NCBI GenBank assembly: GCA_005223375.1
Contig: RXOD01004195.1
Span: 1-26,367 of the forward strand
Source of the DNA: Amoebophrya sp. AT5.2
Taxonomy: Eukaryota; Sar; Dinophyceae; Syndiniales; Amoebophryaceae
Reading direction: 5' to 3'
Length of the DNA: 26,367 bases
Below are positions 1-25,015 of the stretch, one piece after another (within the stretch, counting starts at the first letter, position 1; each line of letters starts with the position of its first letter). The notes under the pieces are model-generated. The model made no database searches. It saw only the letters and a list, made by a program, of their open reading frames with translations, and was not told the DNA's origin. Made by a program: the position numbers and the translations under genes.

Positions 1-9
1 TGTTTCGAC

Positions 10-24
10 GGAGACGGGGTCTCC
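10..24. repeat. LTR hairpin
   Basis: GGAGAC (10-15) and GTCTCC (19-24) form a perfect 6-bp stem around a GGG loop. The same hairpin is in the other LTR at 23536-23550. It would be transcribed just downstream of the AATAAA. Its role is unknown. Confidence 0.5.
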
Positions 25-111
25 GTAGACCGGCTCTGCTCGCTTTCACAGCGAAACCAAAGCACGAGCGCGACACTTGTTCAGCGAGCAGACGCCAGCG
101 TGGGTTTTTGT

Positions 112-117
112 TTTATT
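112..117 (-). terminator. Poly(A) signal AATAAA in the 3' LTR
   Basis: The minus strand reads AATAAA within an A-rich stretch about 110 bp into the repeat. A canonical polyadenylation hexamer inside the LTR on the coding strand fits the normal LTR arrangement and supports minus-strand orientation. The identical hexamer in the other copy is at 23638-23643. Confidence 0.5.
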
Positions 118-230
118 TCTTGCTTCGAACTTTCACAGCTCTCACAAAATAGGCTCAAAACTATCTGCGAGTTGTCCAAAAGTTCAATAGAAATTGTTCG
201 TTTTTCAATCGTCAGAGGTATGATCACACC

Positions 231-479: not shown

Positions 480-2742
480 TCAATCCCTTTTCGCCTTCAG
501 CAGCAGGCTCTTCACTTTCTTCTTTTGGCGTTCTTTTGCAACCACGCTCCCACTCCCGATGCGCTTCTTGATCCATTGCTCCTCCCGCATGTTGTTCAGA
601 AATTTGTAATAGTTGTTTTCCGCGATCTTGTTCCCCGAGCTGTACACTTTGAATTGCTGGCTTTGATCGTTTTGCGTGATGGGGATTTGGGCTTCGAAGC
701 GTACCCGTAGCGCGCAATGGTCGTGCTGTGTGTGGAGTAGGTAAACTTCTGCTTGTCCTTCTTTGGCGGCTCGAATCCGCTTGCAGTTTCCGAAACAGCT
801 GGTTGTTGGCTGGAAGTATTGTTGGTCAGATTCCCAGGCGCGCAGCTCCTGGAGCTCGGTTTTGTCGGTGTCGGGGTCGTGGGCTTTTGTGCCGCGCTCC
901 AGGTTGTCCAACCGCTCCTGCTCGAGCTGCTGGAACCGCTTGTCCCCCGCGAGGGCCAGCTGGCTCTGGTTCACTTCGTCAGAGCTGATTTCTTGTCCTC
1001 GGATCCGCACGTGCGGACTGGTCCACAACACTGCATGAGTCAGGGAGAACCAGTGACTTGGCGGCTCGGAGATGAGACGGAAAGTGTGCTCGTACCCGTC
1101 TGAGCTCATGGCGATCGGCTGTCGGTCGAACCCCAGCTCCGTGAGCATCGCGCGGAAATCCTCGTGCTCCTCGGGCTGTAGTGATGGGATCCTTCCGTCC
1201 TCGTTCTCAGTCTGCATGTGAGTGCCACTCTCGGCTGGGTCGAAGAGCGCACTGAAGTCCCCGACCAACAATACGACATGGCGCACCTCCTGTGCTGCTT
1301 TGATCATCTTCCCCAAGGAGCGGGTCCATCGCTGCCGCGTCTTGAAGCGGTGGAGGTTGGTGCCGGAATTGATTTGATATAGACCAATACTCAAAATTCC
1401 AGGCCCGTTTTCGACTACCGTTACCCTGCCTTCCAGCCCTGGATCATGGTCAAACTCATCCCCATGTTTGTAGGGCGGGTGGATATCTATCACCTTCCCC
1501 TGCGTCACGCAGGCCACGCCGTAGTTTCCAGGTCGTGTGACGCAGCTCTGGATGGCGACGTTGGTCCGCCCCGGAGGCGAGCCAGCAAGGAGGTGAAGCG
1601 AGGCCTTGGTACGCTGTTCGTCCCGCGCCTGCGTCTTCATCTCCTGTAAATGGGATGTTTCGCACCTGTGCAGCAACTCCGAGAGCATCGCCAGCTTCCA
1701 ACCCCGCTGGGTGGCGGCCCTATACCCGTCCACATTAAAGGTGCCCGTGTCGACGAGGATGGTGATGTAGTCACCGCCCGCGCTGCTGCTTCGGTACGCG
1801 GCGGCAAAGACAGCGTCGGCCCGGCTCCGGATCTCTTCCAGGAAATCGACCCCCAGCTCTTGCAGCTGCTTCATCCGGATCTTCATTTCTTCGTCGCTCA
1901 TGCCGCTCTCGTTCATGTACACCAGAACCGCTCCACGCGTTGACAAAATTTCTTTCACGTGCGCAATCGAAAGCGGATTCCCACCAAAATAGGAACGGCC
2001 GTCCCGACGTTCTAAGTCGACCGAATTACCGTAGACGCGGACCACGATGTAGATCTGTCGTATGAAGTAAGTCTGGAACTTTGTCTTGCTCGGCCTCAGT
2101 CGTAGTACTAGTGTTCCGCGCTGCGCCCAGCCGTAATTGGCTCTTCCTTGTCCAAAATACTTCCGCCGTTCCGCAATGTTCCTCTCTTCGAGTTTTTGCA
2201 GGCGGGCAGCGCAAGCTCGCTCCGAAACCGCTTTCAGCTTTGCTCCGGCGGCGACGCCATCCTCCAAAACTCCTTCACTGAAAATCGGAGGGATATTCAA
2301 CAAGTCGTAGCCGCGCCCCCGATGCATGTGCAAGCAACTACTTCCCTCTTGGTTGCGCCGCGACTTCATGTCGAGCATTATCTTGTTCAGCTGCTCGTCC
2401 CATTTTCCTTCAAAAGGCTCGTCGGTGACTTTCGTTTCTTCGTCCATTTCGTCCGAGCGGAGCTCAGAAGTCGTGACCCGTTTCCAGCCTGTCTCCGGGA
2501 AAAGTGCTGCCCGGATGCTCCGACTCGCGGTTTGGTGGGGGCGTTCTACTTTGGACTGGGCTCTGGCCATGTAGTGCGGCCCGTGTCGCACCTTGGGCAG
2601 CCGGGCTCCTTCCCCCAGTTCCTCTTCCAGCCGCACCCTCAACAATTGTTTGAGCCGCGTCTTGAAATGCGAGCCGTTATCCGACCGGATTTCCTGATAT
2701 GCCTCGCTGAAGTCCACCATTATCTGCACGACTTTCGACTTT
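480..2742 (-). CDS. Polyprotein 3' part: integrase catalytic end, IN C-terminal domain and EEP endonuclease-like domain
   Basis: The open frame runs 2831-480, but the genuine part begins at the 7-bp duplication (2729-2742), where it takes over the integrase from the upstream frame. It has the second catalytic Asp (SDNGSHF, about 2664-2690) and the Glu (QSKVERPH, about 2533-2560), D-x44-E apart. An SH3-like integrase C-terminal segment (about 2150-1960) starts GTLVLRLRP. An EEP fold follows (about 1765-690): FNVDG, LQEMK, a GVACV strand, LYQINSG, GDFSAL and HDHCALRV, matching in order the N, E, D and terminal DH motifs of APE and L1 endonucleases. The usual N after GDF is S, and the SxxD motif is replaced by SLTHAVL, so activity is uncertain. 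The protein ends in a Lys/Arg-rich tail. No start codon of its own is needed; this is the last part of the polyprotein. Confidence 0.8.
690..1765 (-). other. EEP (APE/L1-EN-like) endonuclease domain
   Basis: Motifs in order: TFNVDGYRAA (about 1712-1752), SHLQEMKTQ (about 1632-1652), NYGVACV, GRVTVVE, LYQINSGTN, LLVGDFSALFD (about 1246-1266), EHTFRL and HDHCALRVRF (about 711-733). This is the order and spacing of the endonuclease/exonuclease/phosphatase superfamily. The GDFN Asn is Ser, and the Asp of the penultimate motif is missing from SHWFSLTHAVLW. The assignment is by eye. Confidence 0.65.
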
Positions 2743-5700
2743 CTCCACGGCGAACTCTGCGTTGGCACTTGGGCAAGGATAATACCAAGGCATGCCGGAT
2801 GCTCCGTCGTTCGCCGTAAATACTGCGGCATTACCTTTCCCGGTCAAAGGTAGATTTGTCATATAGTCTATGACTAATGACAAACCAGCACGGGTGGTCT
2901 TCTCTCCCCGACAGGGGCCTTCCAGCGACGGGAAGCGGGTGAGGGACGTGCAGATGGTGCGCCGCGTGATGAGACCAATAACTTCGCGAAGTAAACTGTC
3001 GCAGAAGTATCCCCGCTGCATGACGGCTTCGCACAACCCGGTTTGTTGGATGTGGTTTCTTGCTGTATGTTCAAAATCAACCACTGCTCGACACACACTG
3101 GTCGTCCCGTATTTCTTCGTCAGGTAATTCACGCCCGTCGTGATCACTGTTGGTAACCAGACATGCCACTTCCTGTTGAGGCTCCTGTAGACGAAAAGAT
3201 ATCCGGCCTGGTGCACGAACCTACGTGCGTTCGCACGGGCCTCGCGCACATCCCGTTCGGTGGCGCTCCGACCGGACTCAGTGAGAGCGTTTTTGATGTG
3301 CTGCTTGATCGTCTCTTCCGAGAGCCCTTTGTCCACCCCATCCAGACGCGCGAAGATCTCCGTACATTGGAGACGTTGTCCGTCCTGCAGCGCCCCACGA
3401 AACTCGGGGTCGATGTCCACGTCAAGCTCGCCGATCTTCTTCCCGACATAAAACGCGTATAGGCAGTCCTGCTGGGCGATGAGGTCCCCGCCAGCTGTTT
3501 CAAACCGGAAGAGTGTCCCGCAGCGGAGTGGCTGCCCGTCGTCGCGGAACTGCAGGATCCGCGTCGTATGCGGCGGATAGGCGACAAGCAGATCGTCGGC
3601 CTCGCAGTAACGGAAATCGTGCACCGCGACCTCTTCCGGCTCGTACACGTGGCTGCGCGGGAAATAATGTTCGAGACACTGCGTGTACTTCTCGTACAAG
3701 CTCTCCCCCTGTCGATACGTGGCGCGTCCACTAGGTTTCGCGTGCAGCAGATCCGCCATTTGCGAGAGGATTTTCTTCACCCCGTCTCGTGTAACACGCG
3801 CACGCGCAGGTTCGTTGCCACCCTCCGTTTCTTCCGAGTCCAGAAAAGGGTTGTCAGCCACGTCCTCGCAGAACAAGTCTTCCACTGTCTCGCTCTCGCC
3901 GGTCTCGGCCTCCCGGGGGGCAACTAGACCTTCGTCGACCCCAGCAGGCAGACCAGTGACCGGGTCCAGCTCGGCAGGGTCAGGCTCGACAGCCTCAGCG
4001 GGGGCAGGGGCGTCCACGTCACGTCCATCAGGATCATCAGGAGCGGGGGCGCTCGATTCGGGTTCGACAGGACCAGCAGGAGCGGAAGCGTCCGGGCTCG
4101 TACCGACAAGGTCAACAGGGTCGTCTCCGTCCTTCGGGGCCGGCTCCCATGGGACGTGCACGAGGTCGGGGCAGACGTCGGAGTCACCGGCCGCCACTCC
4201 CAGGTCGTCCGCAGTCACGTCCTTCTTCTTTTTGCGCCCGCGGCGTCCTTTTGCTTTCGGCGCGGCCTTCACCTTCGGTTCCGCGGCGCTCCGGCCACTC
4301 GCGTCGTTGCTCGCGTTCGGGGAAACACCCTTTTCTCCCTTCTCCTCGACAGCAGGCGGTGCAAACTTGTCTGCTTCGACTCCGAGCCCAGCGTCCCCAG
4401 AGAGGGAGCCACAACTGTACACCGAGTACTGCCCCGGGACTCGCTCTGTCAGCACGCAGCCGGGACAGCGGAACACAGGACCCGGGAATCCCAGGCGGGT
4501 GGTCTGCGGGTCTGCTCCTTTGATGGTGAGGATCCGCCCCCCTGGTCTGTTCACCTGTTCGAGGAATTCGGCCTCCGTGTCCGGCATAACTTCCCACGCC
4601 TTGTATTCGCAGGGCTTCGGCGGGTGGACAGCATGCCGCGGGTCCCCGCGTTTGAAGAGCCGGAGGAGCCGCGGGAAAGGCCGCCACTCGTCTGTCCACT
4701 TGAGGTTCACCCAGCGTTGTCCGCTACCGGAGGCTTTCTTGATGTCTTTGTCCGTTTTCTGGTTCTTCGTGGGCGCGAAATTCGCCTTGGGGTCCTTCGG
4801 GGGCGGTAGTGCTTCGAGCGGTGAAATTTGTAGTTTCGCGCTATCTCCGTTCTTGTCCGAGTTCTCCAAATCGGTGTAGCGCGTCATTCGGATGACGACC
4901 GGCACCCGCGATGCGATTTCCGGCAGGTCTCCAATCTCTTTCTTTTCCATCAGCTTCTGGTCCTCTGCGTTTTTCGGTCCCGTCCCCCGGTAGCCCTTGG
5001 CGACCTCTTCGGCCCACTCGCGCAACTCCTCAGCGGCAGCTTCGTCGACTTCGCGGAGGCGTCGGTACTCCCGGCGGGTGATCGCGGCGATTTCCGAACT
5101 TAATTTCTTCCAAATGTCCGTTATCTCGGCCAGGGGGTATACGGCGTCCTCAAATATCGTATTGAGGAACGTCGCATCAACTATCAGCCTACCGAGGGCT
5201 GATAGTTTCCTCACCGCCAGAAACAAAGCCGATAATTGGACTGGTAGTCCCATCGACACTTCGTACTCGCGCGCCATCCCTTCTAAAAAGTGCTCGAGGA
5301 GCTGGAATCTCAAGATTCTGTCGAGGATGGGGGCCAAAGCTATTTTCCGGAAGCCGTGAAACCGCGCGTCCTTGCGTACAACGTGGTAAGCACTTCCATA
5401 CAAACAAGTGGGGAAGTCCCTCCCTTCCGACCAGAAGGAGTGTCGTAGCGTGAGCAACAAACGCCGCACCAACTGGCGTCCTGCGACCGGGTAGTCCCGC
5501 ATCTCTTCGTCCGCGCGTTTGAGCACCAGGTTGAAGAAATCGTCCTCGTTGATCTTGAGTTTGCCTTTCTTCAACCTGTCGCGTATTTCGTTGTTGACCT
5601 GCTCGACGTTGGCTCCTTGTAGTATCGGCGAATCACAGACCGCGGCCTCGAGTTCTTCGACCGTGCACTCGTGCACATTCCGGTAGCTCCGCTGCGACGA

Positions 5701-7200
5701 TTTCCGGTGCTCGTCCTCCTTGCTGATTCGGTCAACCACTTCAACTCGGGTGAGACCCTTGAGATCATAACGCTTTCCTCCGTGGAGCTCCACAGCTCTG
5801 AAGATAGGCGTCACCGCGACGTCCCGGGTCGGCGAGGCTTTGAACAAGACTCCGAGCATGAGGTCAACTTTCGTCACCAGCGGGCACACGGGGGTGGCCG
5901 TCACATGGTCCACAGAGGGCGGCGCCAAATCGGCGCTGTAGACCTGTCCGTCCTCCCGCTCCCGGAAATCTCCGGTGGTGACCCGCAAGGTGGTGACCTC
6001 GTTTGCGCGCATCTCGATCTTCGGCACCGTCCACAAAGACGCGTATGTTTGGAGGGCGAAGATCCTCTGTAGACCTTGCTCCGCGTCGACGGAAACCGCA
6101 CTCGGCACCTCCTCCCCGAAGTCCTCGTCCTGCTCCTCAGTGGGACCACCAGCAACACGGTCTTCCGCCTCGAGGTTTGCCGCTTCGGCTGCGATTTCTT
6201 CCTCGGTGATCTTCCCGGTGCCGAAAAGCTCGATCAACTTCTGCTTCAACTGTTCATACGTCATTTCGGATCCCGGCGGCGCCGCTTCATCCATTTTTGT
6301 TCCCGCGTCCGCCATAATCCCTGCTCCGTTTACTGCCGAAAGATAAGTCTCACGCTCTCCAAATGCTCCCAGTATTTCTGTAGTCATTGAGACTAGCGAC
6401 CTGATGGTCGTGACACTCGTCGCCAGCGTCCACAACTGCGAAGTCGAAAGCGTCGCGTTGTCGTGATATATGGCCACCGCGGCGTGGGGTAACCTCGGGA
6501 GTATCGACCTCGCGAAGTACAAAAGGCCGGCGACTTCCATCAGGACGGAGCTCGCACCGATGCGCTGCACTTGTTCGCGGGAGAACTTCCGGGTAGACGC
6601 GAGGAACAGGCGCAGTTTGCCGTTCTGCAGCTGGAGGCCGTACACGTTCACCCGCACGCGCGAAGAGTCGATGACGATGCGGATGATGGGTGACTGCGAG
6701 GGAGGGTAAAGTTTCCAGTTTCTCGCGGCAGCCACATCCGCGGTGGTTATTTCGATCATGTCCGAGACCGCTCTCCGGATCCGCACAAATGCGGCTCGCG
6801 CACGCGGGTCGTCCCGCATTTGTTTGAGCGTTTTCTTGTCCAAAAGGTACCCTTTCAGCACATCTTCATCCGGGGAGAGGTACGCTTCGCGCAGGTAATT
6901 AACCTGACACAAGAACCGTTTTAGCGCCTTCGGCGACGCGCTTGCTTTCGCCCAGGAGAATTTGCGGATCGCGCTAGCCTTGTCGCGGCTCGGTATTCTG
7001 CAGCGCCGGGGGAAGTCTATTGTCCAGCCCAAACATTCTACGACCCGGGCTATCCTCAACTTCTTTATGCTAAACAGCATCCCGCCCTGGCTCGCGCGCA
7101 CGCACACCCAACCCATGCGTGTTAGTAGACGATATAAACCAGAGAAGGAGAAGTTTATGTCGTCTACATAAGGTATCAGGTGTTCCTCCCCTGGCACCGC
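2677..7200 (-). CDS. Polyprotein middle part: RT motif C and thumb, RNase H, pre-RT/fingers, linker, integrase N-terminal half
   Basis: The frame is open directly after the TGA at 7203-7201 and is in phase with the upstream ORF; it lacks a convincing own start (the first candidate is GTG at 7197). Order: YVDD (7170-7159); thumb with LGWTID and VNYLREAY; RNase H with catalytic D in VIDSS (6669), E in LMEV, D in YHDN and D in MADAGTK (about 6294-6325); a pre-RT linker (about 6070-5740); an RT fingers block (about 5420-5080); a C-x2-C pair (FRCPGC); an acidic Pro/Ala-rich linker (about 4150-3850); an unrecognised domain; a degenerate zinc finger (about 3085-3001); and the first integrase Asp (IDYMTNLP, about 2873-2848). 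The last residues before the stop at 2677 are out-of-frame product of the 7-bp duplication. The enzymes are those of Ty3-like Pol, but the fingers are out of order. Confidence 0.85.
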   Translation of the reverse strand, partial: AVPGEEHLIPYVDDINFSFSGLYRLLTRMGWVCVRASQGGMLFSIKKLRIARVVECLGWTIDFPRRCRIPSRDKASAIRKFSWAKASASPKALKRFLCQVNYLREAYLSPDEDVLKGYLLDKKTLKQMRDDPRARAAFVRIRRAVSDMIEITTADVAAARNWKLYPPSQSPIIRIVIDSSRVRVNVYGLQLQNGKLRLFLASTRKFSREQVQRIGASSVLMEVAGLLYFARSILPRLPHAAVAIYHDNATLSTSQLWTLATSVTTIRSLVSMTTEILGAFGERETYLSAVNGAGIMADAGTKMDEAAPPGSEMTYEQLKQKLIELFGTGKITEEEIAAEAANLEAEDRVAGGPTEEQDEDFGEEVPSAVSVDAEQGLQRIFALQTYASLWTVPKIEMRANEVTTLRVTTGDFREREDGQVYSADLAPPSVDHVTATPVCPLVTKVDLMLGVLFKASPTRDVAVTPIFRAVELHGGKRYDLKGLTRVEVVDRISKEDEHRKSSQRSYRNVHECTVEELEAAVCDSPILQGANVEQVNNEIRDRLKKGKLKINEDDFFNLVLKRADEEMRDYPVAGRQLVRRLLLTLRHSFWSEGRDFPTCLYGSAYHVVRKDARFHGFRKIALAPILDRILRFQLLEHFLEGMAREYEVSMGLPVQLSALFLAVRKLSALGRLIVDATFLNTIFEDAVYPLAEITDIWKKLSSEIAAITRREYRRLREVDEAAAEELREWAEEVAKGYRGTGPKNAEDQKLMEKKEIGDLPEIASRVPVVIRMTRYTDLENSDKNGDSAKLQISPLEALPPPKDPKANFAPTKNQKTDKDIKKASGSGQRWVNLKWTDEWRPFPRLLRLFKRGDPRHAVHPPKPCEYKAWEVMPDTEAEFLEQVNRPGGRILTIKGADPQTTRLGFPGPVFRCPGCVLTERVPGQYSVYSCGSLSGDAGLGVEADKFAPPAVEEKGEKGVSPNASNDASGRSAAEPKVKAAPKAKGRRGRKKKKDVTADDLGVAAGDSDVCPDLVHVPWEPAPKDGDDPVDLVGTSPDASAPAGPVEPESSAPAPDDPDGRDVDAPAPAEAVEPDPAELDPVTGLPAGVDEGLVAPREAETGESETVEDLFCEDVADNPFLDSEETEGGNEPARARVTRDGVKKILSQMADLLHAKPSGRATYRQGESLYEKYTQCLEHYFPRSHVYEPEEVAVHDFRYCEADDLLVAYPPHTTRILQFRDDGQPLRCGTLFRFETAGGDLIAQQDCLYAFYVGKKIGELDVDIDPEFRGALQDGQRLQCTEIFARLDGVDKGLSEETIKQHIKNALTESGRSATERDVREARANARRFVHQAGYLFVYRSLNRKWHVWLPTVITTGVNYLTKKYGTTSVCRAVVDFEHTARNHIQQTGLCEAVMQRGYFCDSLLREVIGLITRRTICTSLTRFPSLEGPCRGEKTTRAGLSLVIDYMTNLPLTGKGNAAVFTANDGASGMPWYYPCPSANAEFAVEKVESRADNGGLQRGISGNPVG
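2729..2742. repeat. 7-bp tandem duplication that breaks the integrase frame
   Basis: CGACTTT occurs twice in tandem (2729-2735 and 2736-2742; AAAGTCG on the coding strand). With one copy, the upstream and downstream frames join directly between the first and second catalytic Asp of the integrase, giving normal spacing (D-x59-D). Two copies shift the frame by one. Confidence 0.85.
5080..6070 (-). other. Pre-RT linker and RT fingers subdomain, downstream of RNase H
   Basis: LAVRK, then 5 residues, then RLIVDATFLN, then YPLAEITDIWKKL match the Ty3 fingers consensus VKKxDGxWRxxVDYRxLN...YPLPxIDxLLxxL at identical spacing: V to R +8, D to LN +4/+5, N to Y +8, Y to final L +12. The D codon is at 5178-5176. 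The preceding 300 residues resemble the beta-rich and helical region normally found between protease and RT. No RT motif A follows; a charged helix does. Confidence 0.7.
6290..7175 (-). other. RT motif C, thumb and RNase H
   Basis: IPYVDDINFSFSG is the RT catalytic motif C. It is followed by the K..I....V..LGW.ID pattern and a connection ending FLCQVNYLREAY, as in Ty3-type RTs. RNase H shows all four expected acidic residues: VIDSS, LMEVAGLLYF, IYHDN and GIMADAGTK. Confidence 0.85.
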
Positions 7201-7203
7201 TCA
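7201..7203 (-). other. Lone in-frame TGA inside the RT domain
   Basis: The codon after it (GCG) and the whole downstream Pol are in the same frame. The stop sits between RT motif B and YVDD, about 30 nt upstream of YVDD. It is either a nonsense mutation, a readthrough site or part of an intron. Confidence 0.9.
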
Positions 7204-10200
7204 CAGCACGCCTTTTATTCGTTCGCGAAGGCGTTGCTGGGCAGCGCGTTGCTCTTCGGACCGCGCCGGCGCGTTGTTCTGCAGGAAGGGATTGGTGGCG
7301 AGCAGCACATCGCACGCGTCTGTGAACCCTGCAGCTGCGGCGACTTCGGCAGCGCTCCGGAAGACGGTGTCGCACATGCGATTGCCCGTTGTTTTCACCC
7401 AACCAAAAACAACTTGTCCTCCTTGTTCTGCAATGGACTTCCCTTCTGCAGCTTTGTCGCGTAGGCCTCGTAGGCACCCACGCAAAAACCCGTCCGGCTC
7501 CTCGAGCTCGAGAAAAGACAGTTTCTCGCCGAACGTCATTTCTCGGGCCTCGCCAGCGGTTTCCCCGTCCTCCATGTCAAAGACGGGGCAGGTCCCAACG
7601 TCCGGGAGCGGTTCGGTACAGGCCGTCCAGTCAGCGTCCGCAGGAGCAGCGACCGGTTCGTCAGGAGGGTGCGCGCGACGGTAACTTTCGTCACAGGAGA
7701 AGACCTCTCCCTCGTTAAATTTCGAGAAGACGTCCCCCTCGTTCCCGACGATGTGGGCGGCTCCGTACTTGGAGGCGAATTCCGTTTCCGCAGCAGCGAG
7801 GCTGGCTTCACTAAAAAATTCCCGCCCTTTGTCGAAGGCCTCAAACCCTATGCAGGGGTCCCGGACCGTGCCGAAGGTCAGTTGACTGCTGGCACAGAAC
7901 AACTGCGGGGCCCAACGTACCCCTAAGAACAGGCGACGGGGACTTCGTACCACTGATCGACACACCCAACCAGTAAAACGCCGTAAGCGTGTGGACAGAT
8001 GGAATTGGGAAAAACCCTTCGCCATGTCCTTCTGGCAGACGCCCTCGCACTCCTTCGCATCACTTGCTAGCAGGTTTTTGATGGCGATGCGGGTCTGCTC
8101 CTGCGTCAATTTTCCGGTCCCGCGATTCGGCACTTTGAAGACGTTGCGACCCGGGTCAGCAGCGTCAATCGCCTCCACGTATTCTGCGAGTAGTGCAAAG
8201 ATCAGTCCGCAGACGAGTACTATTAACTTCCACCCGAACGCTGTCGGTCCGAGCGCCCGTACCCGCTTTGCGTCCCGATCGATCCCCTCTCGATCTTTGC
8301 TCCAGGCGTCCCCCGCTTCCTCCTGCTCGGCTGAGAGGTTCAGTTCGCTCACCGCGGGGCGCGCCGCGCGTGCACAAAAGTCGCGGTCGTCGTCTTCGGA
8401 GTCCGTGTCCGAAGCCTCGTCGTCCGAATAGGCTTTCTGGTGCTGTTCCAGTACGCGCCCGTGCGACCGAAACCCGTTGGACTCCGTCTCCCCTTCGTAG
8501 TAGCTGACGCGGTGGAAGTTTGTGCTTTGCAGCTCCTCGTCCTCGTCGAGTTTGTCGCCCGCCACCTCGTCCAAGAGCGGACCACTCCAGCGCAGCACCG
8601 GGTCAACGGCGAAGCGCGCGCGCCGGACCCCGGTCTGGGTGAACAGCTTCTGCAAGCGCCCAGCTCCCCGTGCAAGCAGACCGAGCGGTGGGAGGTCTTC
8701 CTCGTCCTCGGCGACCCGCGTCTCTTCTTCCTTGTAGGAGCACAATCGGTTGTATGTTCCTCCCGGCGTCACCGTTTGCTGCAGGGGCGGCGTCTCCTCT
8801 TGCAGGCCCGCGAGGATGCGGCAGTGGCGTGTTGGCGGGGCCTCGACCTTCCCGCATTTCTTTTCCGCAAGGCTGCGGAGCTCGACCGCGGAGATTTGCT
8901 GTCCCTTGCGGCCCACGGACTCTTTGAGCAGTTCGTTGTAGCTCTGGTTTCTCTCCCGCAGAGGAGTTCGCAGTACATAGGTCGGCACAACCCGGCTCAA
9001 GGCGACGCTGTAGAGGTGGGTAAACAAGTACGCTCCGTACTGGTCTGCGATGGTGCCCGAACTCCCCATCGCATATCCCATTCTCGCCATTGTGGCATGT
9101 CCGCCAGCAAGGCTGTCGTCCTCAAAAAGCCAACTGACCACCATGACCTGCGCGCCGCGCTGCTCCGTGTCGTGCCCCACGATTCGGCTGTATATGATCC
9201 CTTTCTGCAAGTGGTCGAAAAAGTCGCGCTCCTCGACCAACTCCCGGCTCCCACCAGGCACTGCACCGTCGGGGACGCGGAGCCCGCTGTTGGAGCCAAT
9301 CCCCGAGAACCGCATCGACCCGTCCGCTGCGGCCGTATGCCCCGCGAACCACAGGAACACAGTAGCGACCTTGCAGCTTTCGGATTGCGCCCCCGCGTCC
9401 GGAGTCCCAAAGTGCGCCTTTTCTTGCACCCCATCGATGACGACGAAGGGCAAACCGAACGTCGCGAAGAAGTAGAGGTTTCCGAGCATGTGGCCGCTCG
9501 GAATGCGACCGGTGGCACATCCACTATCCCACATCACTTGGGTGACGGGTGTGGCACCTGTTTCGGAGTGCGCCGCTAGGTATGTGCGATTGGAGAGTGG
9601 GTCGCTCTTCACCTGGACTGTTCTCCCATTCGGCGACATCCCGATTTGCATGCACGCTTCGTTGGCGAGCTTCGCTAACTGCTCCGCGGAGTATTCGCAG
9701 CTGCTTTCCCGCCCGTACCTCTGTCCGGCGTCGTTCCCCGCGACAGCAAAACCATCCAGGTCGAGCAGCAGGTTGTGGCACCACCGCAAAGCGCGACCAA
9801 AAGGCCCGCGTGAGATCCAGCCTGCTATTCCGCGTCTACAGCTGCGGCGACTTCTGCCCCGCGACTCGGCCCCGACTGGCGTTCCGTCGGAGGGAGGAGG
9901 TTCGGGTCCGAAAGCCGGCCGGTCCCTGTCTCCCGTCCGTTGTGCCTCCAACCACTGTCCCTGGGCGTAGGTCTGATCGGCAGCAGCCTTGATTTCTGGC
10001 TGGGCGTAGTGGGTCCGCCGTTTCAGTTCTCGGACGAATCCAGTGTCGCTTTCCCCAGTGGTGAGCCGCCCGGTCAACAACCGGTCCTCCGTCAAATTGC
10101 ACAGCGGGTTCCCTCCCGACAGCAGTTGCCGCAGCACCCGAGACCCCAAACCGCCTTCGACTTCAAAATGGCAGACGCCGCGGTCACGCATGCTCAGGCT

Positions 10201-13200
10201 ACACTTTTGCCCCGTGGTCTGCCAGACTCCATCGTAGTCGCGCGTCCCCGCTGATCCCCGATCCCGAGGGAGCAGACACAGGTCCTCGCGCTGCTGGAGC
10301 GAGGCTGCTTGCTCCAAGCTCAGTCCGACACCGTATTGGTAGTAATCGTCTTCGTGCCCGACGGTTTGCAAGAGGTTCCGCACGAACCCCCGCTCGGCCT
10401 CGTCACCCTGCCCTGCACGCGCGGCGACGAGGTAGGTCCCACTGTCGAATTGTGCGCGCACTTCTGATTTGAGGTGCGTCATGTTCTGGATCGTCTGCTG
10501 CATCTTGAGGCGTGCGTCGCAGCACAGTTTCTCGAGGTCGGTGTCAGTCGACTGGAACTCCAGTAAAATGATCACTACTGTTCTCGCGCGATCCCCCCAG
10601 TCTTTCTCCTCGGTGTCGTAGCTGATCCCATGGAGAAATCGCTCCACGTTCTCACTGATCCGCCCCAACAGATATTTCTGTTCGACCTGCTGGCTGACCG
10701 CAACGCGGTGGACGACGTAGTTGATTCGACTTCCCAACTTCGGCCGGGCAAGTTCTTCTTTCAGTGGTAGTTTGGCCCGGACGAAACGCGAGTCCCAGCG
10801 CGTCTTGTCGAGGGGCTCATATCCACAACGCTGCGTGAACTGGTCGAATGTTTCCCCTTTTGTTTCAGCAAAGATCCCGGTCAGTTCGCAGCTCACGTCC
10901 ACGTAGGAAACCCCGACTTCGTACCCACGGGTGGCTAGTTCGTCCAGGGAAGCAAACCATCCGTGGTCGAGGAAAAAGTTGGCCCCGCGGCTATTCGGAC
11001 GTCCTTCCCCGTTGTGCTCGATGCAGTCGTTGTCGTAGATCGTCGTCCGCCGGGTCTCTGAGGTGGCATCCTCTTCGATCGTGCGGACCAACACTGCGAT
11101 CCCAACTCGAGCGCCCCACCACAGTATTTCAAAAAGAAGCGCGGCACCGATCACCGTCACACTATCTCCCGCGACGGCCAGCCAGCCCCACACCGAGACA
11201 AAACACCAGAACAGCACGCCAATTAAGGTTCGGCTGCGCTCCGCGCTCGGTAGTTGAGGTTTTCCGACGAGACTCTGCCCCCCCCTGTCGGCGGCCGCGT
11301 GACAGCAGACATGGACGGCTCCTGCATAGCCCCCTACACTCACGAAGATCAGGTAGAGCGTGAGCAGCACTAACAGCGTCAAGTTCGATACACTGCGGTC
11401 AGTAGGCGTACTTCGGCCTTCGAGGTGCAGTTCGTTTTTGCCCAGGACGAGAATAACTCCCGGCGCGGTGGTGTCGGGGATTTTTATCAGTCGACAGTCC
11501 CGCTCTTTCTGTTTGCGTTTTGCAGCGGTCGGCGGCTTCCACACTTTCTTCCCGGGTTCAGCGGCCGCCTGGGATGGTGGTCCTGCGTCCCCACCTCCTA
11601 TCACGTCGCTACCAGGTTTGTGATCTGTCTCGGCTTGCAGAGTCGGCAGAGGGACCCCTATTGCGGGCGGGGTGAGAGTCGGCTCGACACCTCTCGCCAC
11701 CTCTTCAACACCTGGTCGCGGGCTCGCGGCTACTGGCCCTGCTGGCTCGGGTCTAGCTCCCCGGATCCACCCCCCTGTGGCAACTGGTTTCGCCCGCGGG
11801 CTCCCATCGACTGGTCGGGAGAGCGCGACCAACGCACCACTGCATCTTCCCCAGTCAACGTCAGGGGCATCCAGCTTTTCGCCGCTCGACATGTGCATGA
11901 GGTAGCGGCGGTTCCAAGCCGGCGGATCATTCCCGATGTTGCAGAAAACGCGCCCGGCTTTGTCGACGAATCGGCGTTGTTTCCTCTCGGCACACCGCCT
12001 TGCTAGCTGCTGCCAGGCTGCGTCCTGTAAGATGTCGACGCCAACATCCTCGAGCACTTGCACCAAGTCGTCCGTCCAATAGTGGCAAATCTCCCAGCCT
12101 TCAGGCACCTTTGACTCCGCGGCGGGCGCCGGGTGCTCTTTCTCCCAGCGCGCCAAGTCGGCAGTGCTGCCCCATACTCGTCCCGCGACTACGTGTTCAG
12201 GTCCTTTCATTTCGACGGGCGCGTGGTACGGGTCTCCGACGTAATATTTTCCACACACCGCTGGCGTCTCTGGCCACCCCTGGTTCGCGTGACGGCTTTG
12301 ATCGAGGAGGTTCTGGGGCGAGGAGTTTGCGCGGAGCATCTGGTGGTATTTGGTAGGCGGGACGATCTCCGGCAAGCCGCGGGCGGTGTCCACGATCTTG
12401 CGCTCCCACCAGCGATGCAACCCGCCCGGTTGTACTAGCACCGCGAACTTCGTGTAGTGGAGGTCTTCGTACTCGAAACACAGCTGGAATTCATCTTCCG
12501 CGTCTCTGCGTACGCGATTCCAGCCCTCGTCGTAGACTATTTCTTCAGCGACTTCGGTGTAGGCGATGATGATTCCGGGTACCGGGCTACGGCTCCACTG
12601 CACACGCCCGTGGAACCCTTCGAACACCTTCCCTTTGGAGGGTCGTCGGAGGTCGACCTTCAGCTCGTTCTGGACCTCGCTGCCCCCGCACTTGTCGACT
12701 TCACGCGCCCAGTAGGCACGCCAACCCGCGACCTCGTCAGGTTTTCCCCAGAGAGGACTGGCGCCGGTCGGGTGCGGTTTCGGTGCATCTTCGGCCTTGT
12801 TGGGCTCCCCTCGGTACCAACGGGCTAACCGATCCAAACCTTCTTCGGTGCCCGCCGCCTGATGTTCGCGCAGTCTCCTGCCGTACTCATCCCGTGTCAC
12901 GATCCGTTCGCTCTCCGCGTCGACCGCTACCCATTCCATCCAGTAATAAACGTCTTTCCCACCTCGGTCAAAAAACACTCGGACGAAACGCCGCCCACAC
13001 CCGTCGTCGAACGCAAGCCGTCCTTCTCGCTGGTTTGTATCCCGGTGCAGGTCCCAGTCCGGGTCCGAGAAACGTTCCGCAGCCACCTCTTCGTGAACGA
13101 TAACGACTCCCGGGACAGCACTACGACTCCAGGTTTGCTCACGGAACCCCCTGAAGGTCCCGCCCCGAGGGGATTGTCCAACGACGGCGCGAATACTGAG

Positions 13201-16200
13201 GCGACTGTCCTTGCTGTAGCTGCGCGTCCCGAGGTTACTGGCAGGTATTTCCCGGGGGAGCGGCTGCAAGCGATTCCCCCCGCTCACGTCTCCGGTCGAG
13301 TTCACCGGTCCTTCTGCGGCAGTTCCTCCTCCCAAACCAACCGCGGCAGACGAGGAACTTGCAGCTGCAACGACAGCGCTAGGCACAAGGGCCCCAGCCT
13401 CCGAGGACTGCTCTTCCCACCAAGGCAGAGGCTCTTCGACAACAATCGTGCTCCAGGTGCGGCACGAGTCCCAGTCGACGTTCGGAGCGTCCAGCCTGTT
13501 GCTACTAGGTGTGTGCACGAGGACCCGACGGCTCCACACCGCGAACTGCGTCCCGATATCACGGTAGACGCGCCCACGCACGTCCGCGAACTGCCGGATC
13601 CCGTTGTGCCGGCAACCCCCTGCGAGCGCACGCCAGTGAGCGTCGTTCAACGTATCTCTGTCCACGGGTTCCTGCACTTCCTGCAACTCCGAGCACAAAT
13701 AATCTTTGAGACGCCACCCGGCGCGGGACCCGAGACAGGGGGCAGGCCGGCTTTCCTCCTCGATATTGCCGCTCCGCATCGAGGAGTAGTATCTGTTGCA
13801 GCCTCTACCCAGGTTAGGGTCGGCGGGGGTGAGTGTGGTTTTGAGTTCCCCCCCCAGTGTGTTGCTGAAATTCCCCGCCCCGAGGTGTTTGTAGAAGTTA
13901 CTGCTAGTGGCTCCTCCGGGAGGCGCGGGAGCAGGGACACCTGCACTCGGTCTTGTTTCGGTCGGCAGAATGCTCGGTTGCAACTTGCTGAACACGTCGT
14001 CGATTCTAGGGGCAGGCGTATCGGCGGTCGGTTCGCCAGGAGCGGGCGGAACAACGCGGGTGGCCGCGCCCGGTGGGCCCGGTTGGGGAAGAGCCGGCAA
14101 CTGCACAGCCGTCCCAGCCCGGTACACTACTGCCGCGTCGTCGTATTCACCTCCGCTCAGTTCGTTCAGGATGCGTTCATACTCGGTGTTGTCGTGGACT
14201 CGGGCGGCAGCGTAAGCTCCGTGGAGGTCCCCGTCGAGGCTGGCTTGCAGGAGCCACCAATAATCCGCGAGGAAGTCCCACTCGTCCTCCGTCCCGACGC
14301 TATAAAGATACGCGCGCATGGCCTCCTTCTTCGATCCGTCCATCGCGACAGATGGCGCGGCCTTGGCCCTGGCGATGGCTTGGTCAAGGTATCCGACATC
14401 CTTCGGGACGGCCTTGAGCTCTCCGCTGCGCCCTTCTTCCAAAAATTTACGGAAGGCGTCTTCTCCTGAACGGCAGACGGCGGTCACCTTCGCGGAGAGG
14501 GCTGAAGGCTCGGAAGCTTTGGTCCTCCTCCCGCACAGCTGACCTGTAGGCAGATCCTTCTTGGTCAGTTTCATGCGGCGGTCCTGCAGTGACCCCGGGC
14601 AGATCCAGACGTCGACGCTGTTCACCTTTGCCATCAACCCGAGACGTTTCTCCATGCAGAACACACAGCCTTTCATCACGATCACCCCGGTCCCGGCCGC
14701 GATGTTCACACCGACCAGCACATCGAACGCGCTATGGACCTCGCTTGAGTGCTGCTTCCCGCAGACCAGCCGGCTCTTCCAGGCTGGGCCCCCTCCTTTA
14801 CCCTTGGCGCGGTTTTCTCCCGCGGCACCAGTAACCGCCCCGGGGCTTTCCGTGTTACCCTTCGCTGAGGAGGCGTGTCCCTTCTTTCCGCCTCCTTTCT
14901 TGCCACGCGATTTGCCTTTCCCTTTCAGGGCGGCACCTTTGACGCGGTCCGCCATCGCCAGCCGTTCACGGTCGGTCTCGTCTGAGGCAAGTTCTTCTTC
15001 GTAGGTGTGGGCGTCGCAATCGATCGCGAGGAGCCCCCCGTTCTCGGAAAGGTCTTGTATTTCCACCCCGGCATTGTTGTAGATGGTGCTGTGTCCGGAG
15101 CGGTAGCCTGCGAAAGCCGACCCATCAGGCGCCAAACCCAAGCGTCCGAAAGAAAGGAAAAGTTCCTCTTGCGCGTTCTGCAGTCCGTCGAAGCCCGCAT
15201 CAAACCCGCAAAAACTACCACCGTCGAACCGTTTCTGCCCGCGGCTCCCAGTACCGCTGCTGCTACCTCCCCAGCTGCTGCTCCCCTTCGGTCGCCGGGT
15301 GATCTTCCGTCCGAGGGTGGAGTTCACCGCCTCACCTTTCCCTTCGCACCACTGCAGTACTTCTTCCAGCGTGATGATCACCGGTTCGTTCGGATCGAAC
15401 TGGCGACCCTCGAATCTGGCTTCATTCTTTTTCGCGGTTTGCAGCTGTATCGAAAGCTGCTCGATGAAGTGGTAAGACAGCACGCCCGGCCCCAGTACAA
15501 TCGCGTTGAAGCAAGCACTACCTAGCTTCGGCGGAGGGGCGTAGTACCCGTATTCCTCGATTTTCTTCTGCTGTCGCCGGTGAGCGTCCGCCCAGTCGTT
15601 GTGCGCCGTGACAGTTGAGTCGTAGGCGCGATCAGTGGGGATGTACCTGTCGCGCAGCAGGGAGGACAACGCGCTTTGGTAATCCAACTCGCAGTCGCTG
15701 GCCAGACCGAGCTCAAAATCCATGAATTGGCAAAGCTCCTGGTCCGGTTGATACGCGGTCCCCTCCACGCGAGTATAGGCTGACTTCGCCTCTTTGCTCT
15801 CGAATTTCATCGTCTCGAGGGCTGTCGGGTCAAAATCGTACGCCGCGTAAAATTTGAGGCGTTGTTCCAGGTTTTCGATGAACTTGATCGGATGGGCTGC
15901 TGTTTCTTTCAAGGTGTCCTTACACACCGGTGCGACAAGCGCCAGCGGAGGCAAAGATGTGTTCCCGGTGCGGGTGACGGTAGCACGGCGGCGGACGGCA
16001 TTCGAGACGAGGGTCTGCAGGCTCTTGCAAACAGGCCAGGATCGTGGCAGCTCGTCTGGAACACATTTGTCGCGGATCTGATCGATCTGCTCGGGCGAGG
16101 CGAAGACCTCATTGCGTCGACCGCAGAGCCCGGCACTACTACTGCTTGCCCCAGCCCCATCTTGGTCGGCGCGGAGATGGTAGAACCCCCGCATTTCCTC

Positions 16201-19200
16201 CCGGAATTCGAGGCGGCGATAAGCTCTCTGCGCTGTTCCCACCTTGGTGGCGTCACCATCTGTTCGCGACGGTACTCTCGAGGAGCGGTAGGTGTCGTCG
16301 TCTACCCCGTCGCAGAAACTACTGTAGTCTTTCCCGGCACAGATGAAACGATAGCTCAGCGCCTCCCGGACATTGTTCTGATATTTCTGCAGGCGCATGA
16401 CGACGTCCGCCTTGGCGGCGTCACTCAGCTGTCCCTTCACGACCCGCTCCTGCTCTTTCCCGAGCCAAGCAATTGTGCCTCGGAAACCAAAAACTGCTCC
16501 GCCGCGCTCCTCGAACTCCGGTTTCCCGGGCGCACGCCCCTCCCGATTGGGATGCTCACCTTCCCCATCACCGTAAATTTTCCTATCCCCAGGTATGATT
16601 GCGCCACCGCGTTCTTCTTCACGCCGCAGCAGGCGTCGCCGCTGTGCCCCCCCATCATAAGGGTGCCCAGTCGTCCCGAAGTCGGCGGTACAGTTCAGGT
16701 CGTCGGTGGGTTGTGAGGTAATCGGAGGGCGACCCTCCTGGTTCCCTCCCAGTTTCAAAGCCACGGCGTCAAGGGCTTGATTGATGTCGTTCCGGACACG
16801 GTCCTGCTCCTTTTTCTGCTCCGCGATGGAGGCCTGGATGGCCTGGTCTGTCGCAGTGCGGTGATCTTCGAAGGCGCGCTGGATCTGTTCAAGGAACGGG
16901 TTGACCGGAGTCGCCGAGAGTCCGGGAGCTGGTCTGATGCCGGGGCTGCCTCCAGGGAGGAGCGTGTGGCTCTGCTGGTATTGCTGTGCCTCGTCCGTCA
17001 CGAGCAACCCTCCAGACACCCCTTCCGGACTGGCCACGGGGCCGACTGCGGTTGTTCCCTGGGTAGCATTCCGGACGGCGTCCGGCAGCTGCGCGAGAGC
17101 TGAGACCACACCCTCAAGCTGGGCCCCAATGCGATCCTCCAGGTCAGCACGTCCTTTCTTCACCTCCTTGGCTCCGCCGGAAGGCGACGCATTTCCCCGG
17201 GATCGCCTTTCTTTTGCCTCCAACAACGCAGAGCGTCGCTCAATCTCTGCTAGGGTTTTTGCGTGACCATCTGCCTGCGCTTTGGCAGTAAGTTCGATTT
17301 CGTTGCGTAGCTTCCGCTCCGCGGCAAGCGCTCTCTCCGAAGCAGTCTCCCTCTCCATCCGCAGTCGTCGTTCAGCTAGTAATTCACGCTCCTGGCCTGC
17401 GGAGGCCTTCTGCGAGAGATCGAGCCGTGCTTCCAATCCCACGACTTGAACGCCGAGAGTGCGACACTCATCGTCGCGGAGACGCAACTCCGCCTCCCTG
17501 AGCACGAGTGCCTGCTGCTCCTCTTCGTCCCCGATCTGGGATTTGTCGTCCCGTACCGACTGAAATTCGATTTCGGTGAGTTTCTGTTCGGCAGCGGCTT
17601 GTCGAGACAAAGCCTCGTCCAGTTCTTTCTCCAGCCGGTCTGCTCGAGCATTCGCTGTGGTGGCGCGTATCTGCAGTTCTCCGCGATCGGCTTGGGCACG
17701 AGCCCCGACAGTCTCAGCAGCGGCTTGGCGGGCGCGGACCTCGGCTAACTCTTTCTCCAACTGCCCCGCTCGAGCGTTCGAGTTGTCGACCCGAGTCAAC
17801 AGCGCCTGCTGGTTCGCCTGCGCTCGCGCATCCAACATCTGACGTTCTCGAGCAGCTTCGGTCCGGGCGGTCTCGAGGTGGGCCAGTTGCTGCCGGTGCT
17901 CGGTCTGGGCCTGGGCCACCTTCGTTTGTGCGAGAGAATCAAACTCAACTTTTTGCGCCGCGAGTTTCTGCTGCAGCTCTAACTCCAACGCCTGCCGTGC
18001 TTCGAGTCCCCCTTCGGTTCGAGCCGACTCCCACGCGAGGGAATCAAACTCAACCTTTTGCGCCGCGAGTTTCTGCTGCAGTTCCGTTTCCAGCGCCCTC
18101 CGTGCTTCGAGTGCCCCCTCAGAGCGGGCCGACACCAATACGACCTGCTGGCTTGCCTGGAGTTGTTGGACAGTCGACTGGTGATGCGACTCCAACTCTA
18201 CCTTTTGTTGCGAGAGCCGCTCCACCGCCTCAGCCCGATAGGCCTCGCGCTGATTTTCTTGCTGTTGAGCTAGTTCGACTTCAAACTGCTTGCGTATCAT
18301 CAGTTCCCGATTCTGCAGCTCGGAGGCGAAGGCTTCTTCGCGGTTGGTGACGGACTGTTCGTTTCCCCGTATGACGCTCTCCAGGGCGTCACGGTACTCC
18401 GTTTGCTGTTCAACCATTTTCTGCTGCAGTCCCTCCATTTGTTGTTTCATTTTCTTCTCTTGCTCTGCCTGTTGCCGAACGATCTCCGCTTTCAGCGTGT
18501 CAATCTCGCGTCGTCGCTCGTCATCGACCGCGTCCGGATGGACGGCCGAGCCCACGCCTCCTTTGACCCCGGGACGGCTCATGATCCCAGAGGAGATGGA
18601 GCTGACCTCGTCCCCCTCCGTGTTATACCATTCGGCCAGCTGGTCCGCTTCGGCACTTTCCATGCTACTGCTCCCCAGACCCTCGTCCTTCTCTTTCGGG
18701 TCCATGAAATCGTCGCTGTCCATGGCTGTCACCTCGACGTCCCCTTGCGTCGCGGGTGTTGGTTGCTCGAGGACCCGTATATCGGCGACGAAACTACTGC
18801 TACTCCCAGCGCGGCTGGCTCGCTTCGGCAGCGGCGACCCGGTCTCCCCCGGACTCCCACTTCCTTCCTGGGCTGCGGCGGAAACGGAAACCCTTTTGGA
18901 GCTACTGGACCTCGGCCGGTCGGTCGACGGCGGACTTTCGATCAACAACCCCCCTTCGGGAGAAGTGGGGTTGACTGGGGCAGCTACCAGCCCACTCGGA
19001 GGCGCCGTTCCGGTAGTGTCGGCGCTCAATGAAGATCGCGAGGCGGCGGCTGATGAAGGGCCGGCTTTCTGGGAAGCCTTCTTTGGAACGTTCGCCTCGA
19101 TCGAACCCCCACGGCCGAGGCCACCAAAAACCGTCTGCAGTATGATCCCCGGATCAACCCGGATCTGTGGGGCGCACGTCCCAGGCTTCGGCGGCTCCGC

Positions 19201-19800: not shown

Positions 19801-19805
19801 CTTGA

Positions 19806-20819
19806 TCAGGCTGCAGGCAGCCAAACGCGGTGAACCGGGTATCGAGACAGGAAGAAGACTACTCCACGGCAATATCTGCTGAGGAGACGGAGACCTGACG
19901 ACCACCCCGCAGCGAGGTTCTGGAGAACCCAGCGAAGGTCACGGTAGAGGTCTGAGAGCGGCCCGCGCAGCGTGGAGTCGAGGACCAAGAGGAAAGACCC
20001 GGCCTTCGATACCCAGCGGGGAATTATGTCCGCCCACGCGTAGTGCAGTAGGTTCCGAGTAGTGCGGGCACGAACGGTTTCCGCCTTGGTGTAGGCGATA
20101 TAGAGCTGGAAGAGCCGACAAACTTCGGTCCGGACCGGTGACCAGTGGGTCGAAGGGACCAGACACTCGATCGGCAGGGGCTTCACCCCGTCTCTCCACC
20201 CGACGCTGGGATTGTAGCGGTTCAGGTGGAAACTGGACTCCAACTCCCAAAAATACAGGAGCAGATCGTCGGTGGGCAGGTTTGTTTCCCCGACGTGCAG
20301 CTGGACGTGCGCGCTCAGCCACGACGCGTCAACCGGAAGCCCGCGCAGAAATAGTCGCGCCCTCTCGATGATAGGTCCAGCTGTTGCGATGAGGAACCCG
20401 AAGTCAGTTCCGAGAGTTTGGTACCCCGACCAGAGGTGATGAAGCAGCTCCTTCACAGTAGCGCAGTCGCGGCTCCCAAGCTGGGCGACCCGTGACTCAA
20501 CTGCTACGTGGTCGAGATCCGGTGTGCTGGGCTGAGAAAAACTGACACAGTCGAAAAGCCCACGTCCCACCCAGTCCCGAAGGATGGCGCCGCAAAGGTC
20601 GGGAGATGTCGCGTAGCTCCACAAACTGTTCACGCAAACCCGCTCCGCCTGGTAGGTACCAAAGCAGGTCAAGGATGACACCACTCGAGCCGAAAAGTAG
20701 CAGTTATGCCGGTCTTCGAAATATCGCACGTACTGCTGTACTCGTCCTCCAACTAGACGGCGCGCGGTACTCAGTCTCGAAGTCCGTGAAGCGACGTGAT
20801 CGACGGTTACGCGTCCCAA
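19806..20819 (-). CDS. Upstream frame of 337 codons, no ATG, unknown function
   Basis: The frame is open from about 20837 to a TGA at 19806. It contains no methionine codon; the only start candidate is TTG at 20819. Composition looks protein-like: Trp, Leu, Phe and Arg rich, few Lys, with hydrophobic segments such as GSFLLVLDS and GVVFFLSRY. It overlaps the polyprotein frame for about 130 nt (19806-19938), and a -1 shift would enter it; the stop lies 5 nt before the polyprotein ATG. No slippery heptamer is evident in the overlap. It contains GRGLFDCVSF, similar to the C-termini of the two smaller upstream ORFs. It may be expressed by splicing, a near-cognate start or frameshifting, or not at all. 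Confidence 0.45.
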   Translation of the reverse strand: MGRVTVDHVASRTSRLSTARRLVGGRVQQYVRYFEDRHNCYFSARVVSSLTCFGTYQAERVCVNSLWSYATSPDLCGAILRDWVGRGLFDCVSFSQPSTPDLDHVAVESRVAQLGSRDCATVKELLHHLWSGYQTLGTDFGFLIATAGPIIERARLFLRGLPVDASWLSAHVQLHVGETNLPTDDLLLYFWELESSFHLNRYNPSVGWRDGVKPLPIECLVPSTHWSPVRTEVCRLFQLYIAYTKAETVRARTTRNLLHYAWADIIPRWVSKAGSFLLVLDSTLRGPLSDLYRDLRWVLQNLAAGWSSGLRLLSRYCRGVVFFLSRYPVHRVWLPAA

Positions 20820-23526: not shown

Positions 23527-23756
23527 TGTTTCGACGGAGACGGGGTCTCCGTAGACCGGCTCTGCTCGCTTTCACAGCGAAACCAAAGCACGAGCGCGAC
23601 ACTTGTTCAGCGAGCAGACGCCAGCGTGGGTTTTTGTTTTATTTCTTGCTTCGAACTTTCACAGCTCTCACAAAATAGGCTCAAAACTATCCGCGAGCTG
23701 TCCAAAAGTTCAATAGAAATTGTTCGTTTTTCAATCATCAGAGGTATGATCACACC
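23527..23756 (-). repeat. 5' LTR (the part matched by the left copy)
   Basis: This is the second copy of the terminal repeat and marks the upstream end of the minus-strand element. The outer end is sharp: to the right of 23756 the sequence is unrelated to what follows the left copy. The inner end is not defined by comparison. If the primer-binding-site candidate at about 23315-23332 is real, the LTR would extend left to about 23336 and measure about 420 bp. Confidence 0.9.
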
Positions 23757-24745: not shown

Positions 24746-25015
24746 TCACGCTTGGATAGCTGGCTGAATGGAAGTTGGGTAGAAGGTCTTGTAGTCAGTC
24801 AGCGGAATGATCCGCGAGCTGTTCACCTTGAATGAACGCTTCGGCTCACCACCGGAGACAAGGCACGCGCTGCCGTAGTTCTCCTCGACGATGAACGGAC
24901 CGTCCGCGAGCGGCGCTAAGCGGCGGGCGGAACCATCGGCGGTGACGATCTTGGAGCGGGAAACATAAACGCGATCTCCCTTCTTGATGTTGAGGTTGGT
25001 CCCGAAAGTAGGCTG
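24746..25015 (-). pseudogene. Integrase C-terminal (GPY/F-like) domain of the second element, in a shifted frame
   Basis: In another minus frame, from QPTFG (25015) to a TGA at 24748-24746, the sequence gives KKGDRVYVSRSK, LAPLADGPFIVEE, ACLVSGG and VNSSRIIPL. This is the GDxV...GPF.V pattern of the C-terminal domain of Ty3-type integrases. A net one-base change near 25016-25045 separates it from its catalytic core, so this copy is broken or carries a sequencing error. Confidence 0.75.

Follow-up and report, generated by a model that had tools for sequence, protein, structure and literature searches.

Contig RXOD01004195.1, analyzed over its full length of 26,367 nucleotides (the window), carries on its minus strand an apparent long terminal repeat (LTR) retroelement whose polyprotein contains a candidate Ty3-like reverse transcriptase (RT) with its parts in rotated order. 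The palm, thumb, and RNase H lead, followed by the pre-RT region and the RT fingers, both of which lie ahead of the palm in canonical enzymes. Seven copies of this module, including that of the window, were found in the genome. Its parts in the window, placed by profile hidden Markov models (HMMs), hhalign, and motif positions, are listed below from the amino-terminal side onward.

8041..8235, minus: extension before motif A, opened by the hydrophobic helix WKLIVLVCGLIFALL (8232-8188); 7/7 copies have it; not fingers
7855..8040, minus: RT palm carrying motif A (DMAKGF) and motif B; matched by hhalign and at positions 5-62 of the canonical palm-RNase H HMM
8028-8011, minus: motif A, DMAKGF (motif position)
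7932-7897, minus: motif B, LFLGVRWAPQLF (motif position)
7195..7854, minus: insert separating motif B from motif C, about 220 codons; differs among copies; here with a TGA (7203-7201) near its end
6289..7194, minus: motif C, thumb, and RNase H; four invariant acidic positions; canonical HMM positions 65-311
7170-7159, minus: motif C, YVDD (motif position)
6675-6661, 6543-6523, 6468-6457, and 6315-6289, minus: RNase H acidic motifs (motif positions)
5638..6288, minus: linker of 217 residues from RNase H to pre-RT/fingers, one part acidic and variable in length, another better conserved
5101..5637, minus: displaced pre-RT and RT fingers (fingers HMM, hhalign); 179-180 residues in 7/7 copies
5226-5173, minus: fingertip motif, LFLAVRKLSALGRLIVDA (motif position)
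5139-5101, minus: YPLAEITDIWKKL, after the fingertip motif (motif position)

Order of the RT blocks

The yardstick for block order was a set of four canonical-order RTs of the same genome, on contigs C2301, C1238, C1134, and C1468, which we take to be Ty3-type and whose RT and RNase H matches were computed. The C2301, C1238, and C1134 frames match Pfam RVT_1 and RT_RNaseH; C1468, kept in the set despite missing the start of its pre-RT region, has an RVT_1 match. A further contig, C2453, starts inside the fingers and was excluded from the canonical profile and from the fingers tree described below, but included in the tree of the motif C-thumb-RNase H block (C-RNase H) and in the HMM controls. 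The canonical RT HMM was split at motif A, and its halves were run against the open stretches of at least 40 residues in the six reading frames of the window. The fingers half matched 5547-5092 with a domain E value of 3.4e-11, the runner-up in the window having 0.66. The palm-RNase H half matched 8040-7834 (E value 3.4e-5) and 7185-6304 (E value 1.1e-19; next best 2.8).

Alignments of the blocks over the seven copies, with 6, 5, and 5 of 7 rows kept for palm A-B, C-RNase H, and fingers, were mapped by hhalign onto the canonical profile, each P value being that of one comparison. Palm A-B fell on canonical columns 162-218 (P 4e-6), C-RNase H on columns 222-508 (P 7e-18), and pre-RT/fingers on columns 14-155 (P 1.2e-10). 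The mapping was near-identical from the larger subfamily (five copies), the smaller one (two), and the window copy alone, the weakest result (P 1.7e-4) coming from the smaller subfamily's palm A-B. Read along the polyprotein, the canonical columns thus run 162-218, 222-508, 14-155, which is a circular permutation with its cut just before motif A and with the motif order A-B-C retained. The preliminary description of this DNA had proposed a circularly permuted RT-RNase H module, and separate profile searches of its two halves bear this out. Searches with single proteins agree on the order: at canonical C2301 the fingers part (6687-7193) comes before the palm part (7404-7922), and at the seven permuted loci it comes after.

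Upstream of motif A, the HMM search of the six window frames detected no fingers domain, and neither did a sliding scan of a stretch of copy C1181. That sliding scan covered residues 241-3000 of the C1181 stretch, to which as many as three other copies were aligned, and upstream of motif A it spans residues 241 to about 1700, with about the first 1900 residues of the 4881-residue frame lying outside it. Each RT half occurs once in the scanned stretch, and similarity to fingers was confined to residues 2488-2841 (P >0.05 elsewhere).

Parts of the layout differ from what was first described. Palm motifs A, B, and C do precede the fingers, as stated, but B and C are not close, with some 220 codons (7854-7195) between them; this insert measures 174-226 residues in the four open permuted copies and is all but absent from canonical relatives (columns 218 to 222). 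The fingers were thought to adjoin the RNase H block directly; a linker intervenes, 191-221 residues long in the five copies measured. Comparison of its conserved part with the region that precedes pre-RT in canonical elements gave P values of 0.03 to 0.16, which leave equivalence unproven. Nor did the reading of the hydrophobic stretch WKLIVLVCGLIFALL as decayed first fingers hold: its windows in the sliding scan score at background level against the canonical fingers profile, the HMM search shows no similarity to fingers there, and that identity is rejected. The extension of about 69 residues that it opens, present in every copy, is possibly a membrane or cap helix.

Copies of the module and selection on the displaced block

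The C-RNase H block (P0002) has at least 10 matches in the genome, seven of them strong (46-100% identity, window included) and three weak and located in canonical elements. The block consisting of part of the linker, pre-RT, and fingers (P0003) has at least 13, comprising the same seven contigs, downstream of the first block, pieces on C719 and C2259, and two canonical elements. The C719 and C2259 pieces represent the fingers side without a palm and are not counted among the seven. All seven loci with a strong palm-RNase H match (C399, which is the window, C1181, C1939, C1553, C1489, C305, and C490; a lower bound on the number of loci) have the permuted order, and the canonical order was seen in none of these copies. 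The whole module lies in one open frame in C1181, C1939, C1553, and C1489 (4881, 2403, 4877, and 4976 residues).

Blockwise identities were compared in these four uninterrupted copies. Between C1181 and C1553 they were 90% for palm A-B, 84% for C-RNase H, 79% for pre-RT, and 91% for fingers, with 53% for the insert and 64% for the linker; between C1181 and C1489 they were 56% for palm A-B, 49% for fingers, 41% for pre-RT, 17% for the insert, and 28% for the linker, and linker identity between subfamilies ranged from 25% to 31%. The fingers are thus about as conserved as palm A-B and pre-RT somewhat less so, while the insert and linker drift; the extension before motif A is less conserved than the palm. 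Across all seven copies the pre-RT/fingers block aligns over its 179-180 residues with one gap column. The motif A aspartate, both aspartates of YVDD, and the four RNase H acidic residues are invariant in all seven, as are R-K and L-G-R-L-I-V-D-A in the fingers. In known RTs this region of the fingers grips the incoming nucleotide, and the displaced fingers appear, from their sequence, to behave as part of a working RT.

The displaced pre-RT/fingers block is under purifying selection. Proportions of nonsynonymous and synonymous differences (pN/pS) between C1181 and C1939 were 0.064/0.693 for palm A-B, 0.060/0.657 for C-RNase H, and 0.049/0.792 for pre-RT/fingers, and between C1489 and C490 they were 0.056/0.732, 0.024/0.649, and 0.038/0.643, ratios that are rough, with imprecise synonymous divergence (dS), because synonymous sites are near saturation.

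The element around the module

The remaining features of the element in the window are as follows.

23527..23756, minus: 5' LTR, about 227-230 bp or more, with TG...CA ends; direct repeat with 1-230
7201..19938, minus: open frame of 4245 residues with a gag-like region (by position), protease-like motif, palm A-B, and insert; its stop is the TGA at 7203-7201
9508..9528, minus: DSGCATG, an aspartic-protease-like D-S/T-G motif (motif only, no family match)
2664..3075, minus: integrase-like region with a zinc-binding-like motif and core (motifs by eye); frame change at about 2843-2677
705..1748, minus: endonuclease/exonuclease/phosphatase-like region after the integrase, within a 787-residue frame (motifs by eye)
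1..230, minus: 3' LTR, extending to the contig end; paired with 23527-23756

The 230-bp repeats lie 23.5 kb apart and differ by 3 mismatches in 230. This small difference suggests that the window copy moved fairly recently. No clear purine tract was seen by eye before the 3' LTR, and the flanks examined for C305 and C490 yielded no LTR pair. Beyond the TGA at 7203-7201 the same frame continues to 2677, and in the search within the genome it appears as a single 5753-residue frame with one TGA. The D-S/T-G motif occupies one shared alignment column in the four copies compared, and in the window DSG stands in a similar sequence context; the Pfam scan of window pieces and of downstream stretches of copies gave no protease match. 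Pfam rve matched one of three downstream stretches scanned, that of C305 (E value 1.2e-4; 22.7 bits, below the curated cut-off of 32.6), and integrase-like motifs similar to those of C305 were seen by eye in C490 and the window. Exo_endo_phos matched two of the three, C305 (E value 1.8e-4) and C490 (E value 4.9e-4), both below the curated cut-off; in the window the endonuclease-like region sits in a different frame from the RT and integrase-like part. One element thus seems to carry both an integrase and an endonuclease fold of the type found in long interspersed nuclear elements (LINEs).

Several neighboring features were also noted. A 343-residue frame (19806-20837, minus; predicted only) overlaps the start of the 4245-residue frame in another reading frame, and a tandem 105-nucleotide repeat, 82% alike, lies at 17930-18139, before the protease-like motif, and is probably a coiled coil as judged by eye. 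Upstream of the 5' LTR, at 24846-26366 on the minus strand, is the integrase-like frame of a second element (506 residues, open at the contig end; labeled by eye).

The 21-base dinoflagellate spliced leader, given as such in PMC7245778, occurs 18 times in the 50.7-Mb assembly and its reversed control not at all, from which the host of the element is very probably a dinoflagellate.

Interpretation, origin, and relation to known polymerases

The block order, its presence in the seven copies found, the invariant catalytic and fingertip residues, and the purifying selection on the displaced block are established directly. Taken together, they make it highly probable that this is a natural, conserved, circularly permuted Ty3-like RT in an LTR retroelement, very probably of a dinoflagellate. 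The polyprotein would run from the protease-like motif through palm, thumb, RNase H, linker, pre-RT, and fingers to the integrase-like region, with the chain opened in the loop that leads from the last fingers helix into the motif A strand, and its former ends connected by the linker of 191-221 residues. The downstream fingers would then fold back onto the palm, either while tethered by this long linker or once proteolysis has freed them, completing a normal right-hand polymerase that would copy the element. Folding back within one chain should be possible with a linker of this length.

A number of results weigh against this reading. The Pfam scan gave no RT family match for members of the fingers and C-RNase H blocks, nor for the window pieces, among them the palm A-B block (of the window copy only), and none of the 75 RVT_1 matches in the genome falls on the seven permuted contigs. 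A search of solved-structure sequences with the fingers and C-RNase H profiles returned weak non-RT matches and no RT. Identification of the blocks therefore rests on the canonical relatives within the genome, since neither Pfam nor solved-structure sequences reach them. A single-sequence structure model of window positions 7200-5050 was worthless, with a predicted local distance difference test score (pLDDT) of 37.9. Three of the seven copies are interrupted, C305 and C490 by frame breaks between RNase H and fingers and the window by the TGA between motifs B and C. Members of the family came from one genome only: a protein database queried, under limits on length and on the number of candidates, with window frame residues 1-830, residues 1690-2745 of the 3000-residue C1181 stretch, and a 4-copy alignment (A4) gave no member at an E value of 1e-3 among the 7991, 6095, and 7993 candidates scored, and in viral contigs 24 and 17 pattern matches yielded none that was confirmed. 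Synonymous change is at or near saturation in the pairs given above and in others, the low pN being plain. The window LTR matched none of the other loci compared, and the difference between the LTRs shows movement of the window copy, not that its own RT was responsible. The enzymatic function of the permuted RT is a prediction.

The alternative that survives best is a sub-case of the permuted RT, and the probabilities of the two overlap. The RT could work as two chains that meet non-covalently, with the linker cut by the element's protease or the two parts translated separately. We regard this as possible and well short of probable: a protease-like D-S/T-G motif lies upstream of the RT, and the considerable length of the linker, its size variation, and its low conservation are what one would expect if it need not stay intact, but no site of cleavage was identified, some of the linker looks by eye to be conserved in the manner of a folded region, and a covalent permutant fits the same data. 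A stricter form, somewhat more tentative again, is an obligately two-part RT in which the fingers would stay attached to the integrase-endonuclease end and the palm-RNase H to the gag-protease end, and synthesis would begin only once the two had met after processing. If true, this would be a natural split and permuted RT with built-in timing.

The downstream block might instead derive from a second RT, as a remnant or a captured fragment, with the palm using some other replacement for its fingers. The hydrophobic extension before motif A, found in every copy, could act as such a cap, yet it has no similarity to fingers and is less conserved than the palm. The downstream block, for its part, keeps its 179-180 residues in 7/7 copies with a single gap column and an invariant fingertip motif, its fingers portion is about as conserved as the palm, and the block as a whole is under purifying selection, whereas remnants decay; we consider this explanation improbable. 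Less probable still is that the block was displaced long ago and conserved in another role, for example in binding nucleic acid beside the integrase, in which case the polymerase would be inactive or would come in trans from canonical elements. The RT activity of the permuted family is indeed deduced from sequence alone, but the motif A aspartate and YVDD are invariant in all seven copies and the palm is under strong selection, neither of which an inactive polymerase would need.

Assembly error, or a contig derived from circular or rearranged copies, can be set aside almost entirely as a mimic of permutation: PMC5408684 and PMC3846280 do attribute permuted contigs of rotifer retroelements to circles or fused identical copies, but here all seven contigs found agree, four are open through all junctions, the permutation is limited to the RT, which has the protease-like motif on one side and the integrase-like region on the other, and the copies cannot be one mis-assembled repeat because they differ at nearly saturated synonymous sites.

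For the circularly permuted RT, separate unrooted trees of the fingers (seven permuted and four canonical sequences) and of C-RNase H (seven permuted and five canonical) bear on its origin. Because the permuted copies share one branch with a support of 100/100 in both trees, a single origin fits the data; counting against it, branches are long and the trees conflict on which lineage splits off first, C399 or the C1489-C490 pair. The chain is cut somewhere in a span of about seven canonical columns (155 to 162), after the last fingers helix and ahead of the strand of motif A. A plausible and simplest route is that the module was duplicated in tandem, once, and that complementary parts were then lost, the fingers of the first unit and the palm of the second; no intermediates of this route were found.

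Compared with Ty3-type LTR retrotransposons, the element shares RT, RNase H, and pre-RT blocks that align over nearly their full length, together with LTRs, a protease-like motif, and an integrase-like core. The order differs, being fingers-palm-thumb-RNase H in the former and palm-thumb-RNase H-linker-fingers here, as do the insert of 174-226 residues between motifs B and C, the extra endonuclease-like region after the integrase, and the 23.5-kb spacing of the LTRs. Each parent block is seen once in the stretch scanned, in rotated sequence and with the old ends joined, as circular permutation implies, and does so within one frame in four of the seven copies. In two of the canonical relatives, C2301 and C1238, one in-frame stop (L039 2986-2988 and L040 2005-2007) was seen to split a long upstream frame from the RT frame, which might reflect gag-pol stop-codon read-through.

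Retroelements of the same genome that are presumably DIRS-like, a label given without a family match, also combine an RT with an RNase H-like region. Many of the 75 RVT_1 matches start near profile position 69, which made further RTs without upstream fingers a candidate; among ten such late-starting stretches, however, C439, C494, C324, and C801 are canonical, since in these DIRS-like frames a fingers-like motif, KKVRPIA(N/D)EK, precedes motif A (by eye). For C1175 and C1313 the frame at hand was not the RT or started too late to show the order, four belong to other RT kinds, and the candidate was rejected.

We know of no natural circularly permuted RT and of no other retroelement with swapped order. 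The available portions of the open-licence literature retrieved for permuted, split, and rearranged RTs likewise contain no natural permuted RT, and include papers on permuted RNA polymerases. Birnaviruses and permutotetraviruses have a permuted palm of order C-A-B according to PMC4666646 and PMC4634563, and, as described there, these are right-hand polymerases with a permuted chain and an active site spatially compatible with the canonical one, features that the proposed RT would share. They differ in that motif C is placed before A-B inside the palm, whereas here A-B-C is kept and the whole fingers block stands behind RNase H. They are also RNA-dependent RNA polymerases, and no close homology with the permuted RT is implied.

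On this reading, annotation that relies on RT family profiles can miss permuted elements, as the absence of all seven contigs from the RVT_1 matches illustrates. Canonical relatives share the genome, and the family therefore offers a direct route to studying how circular permutation of a large enzyme evolves within a mobile polyprotein. If the interpretation is correct, it would identify a permissible cut of the chain, before motif A, that could inform the study of split and permuted RTs, and it would mean that the right-hand RT fold can be rotated and the rotated form retained by selection for a long time.

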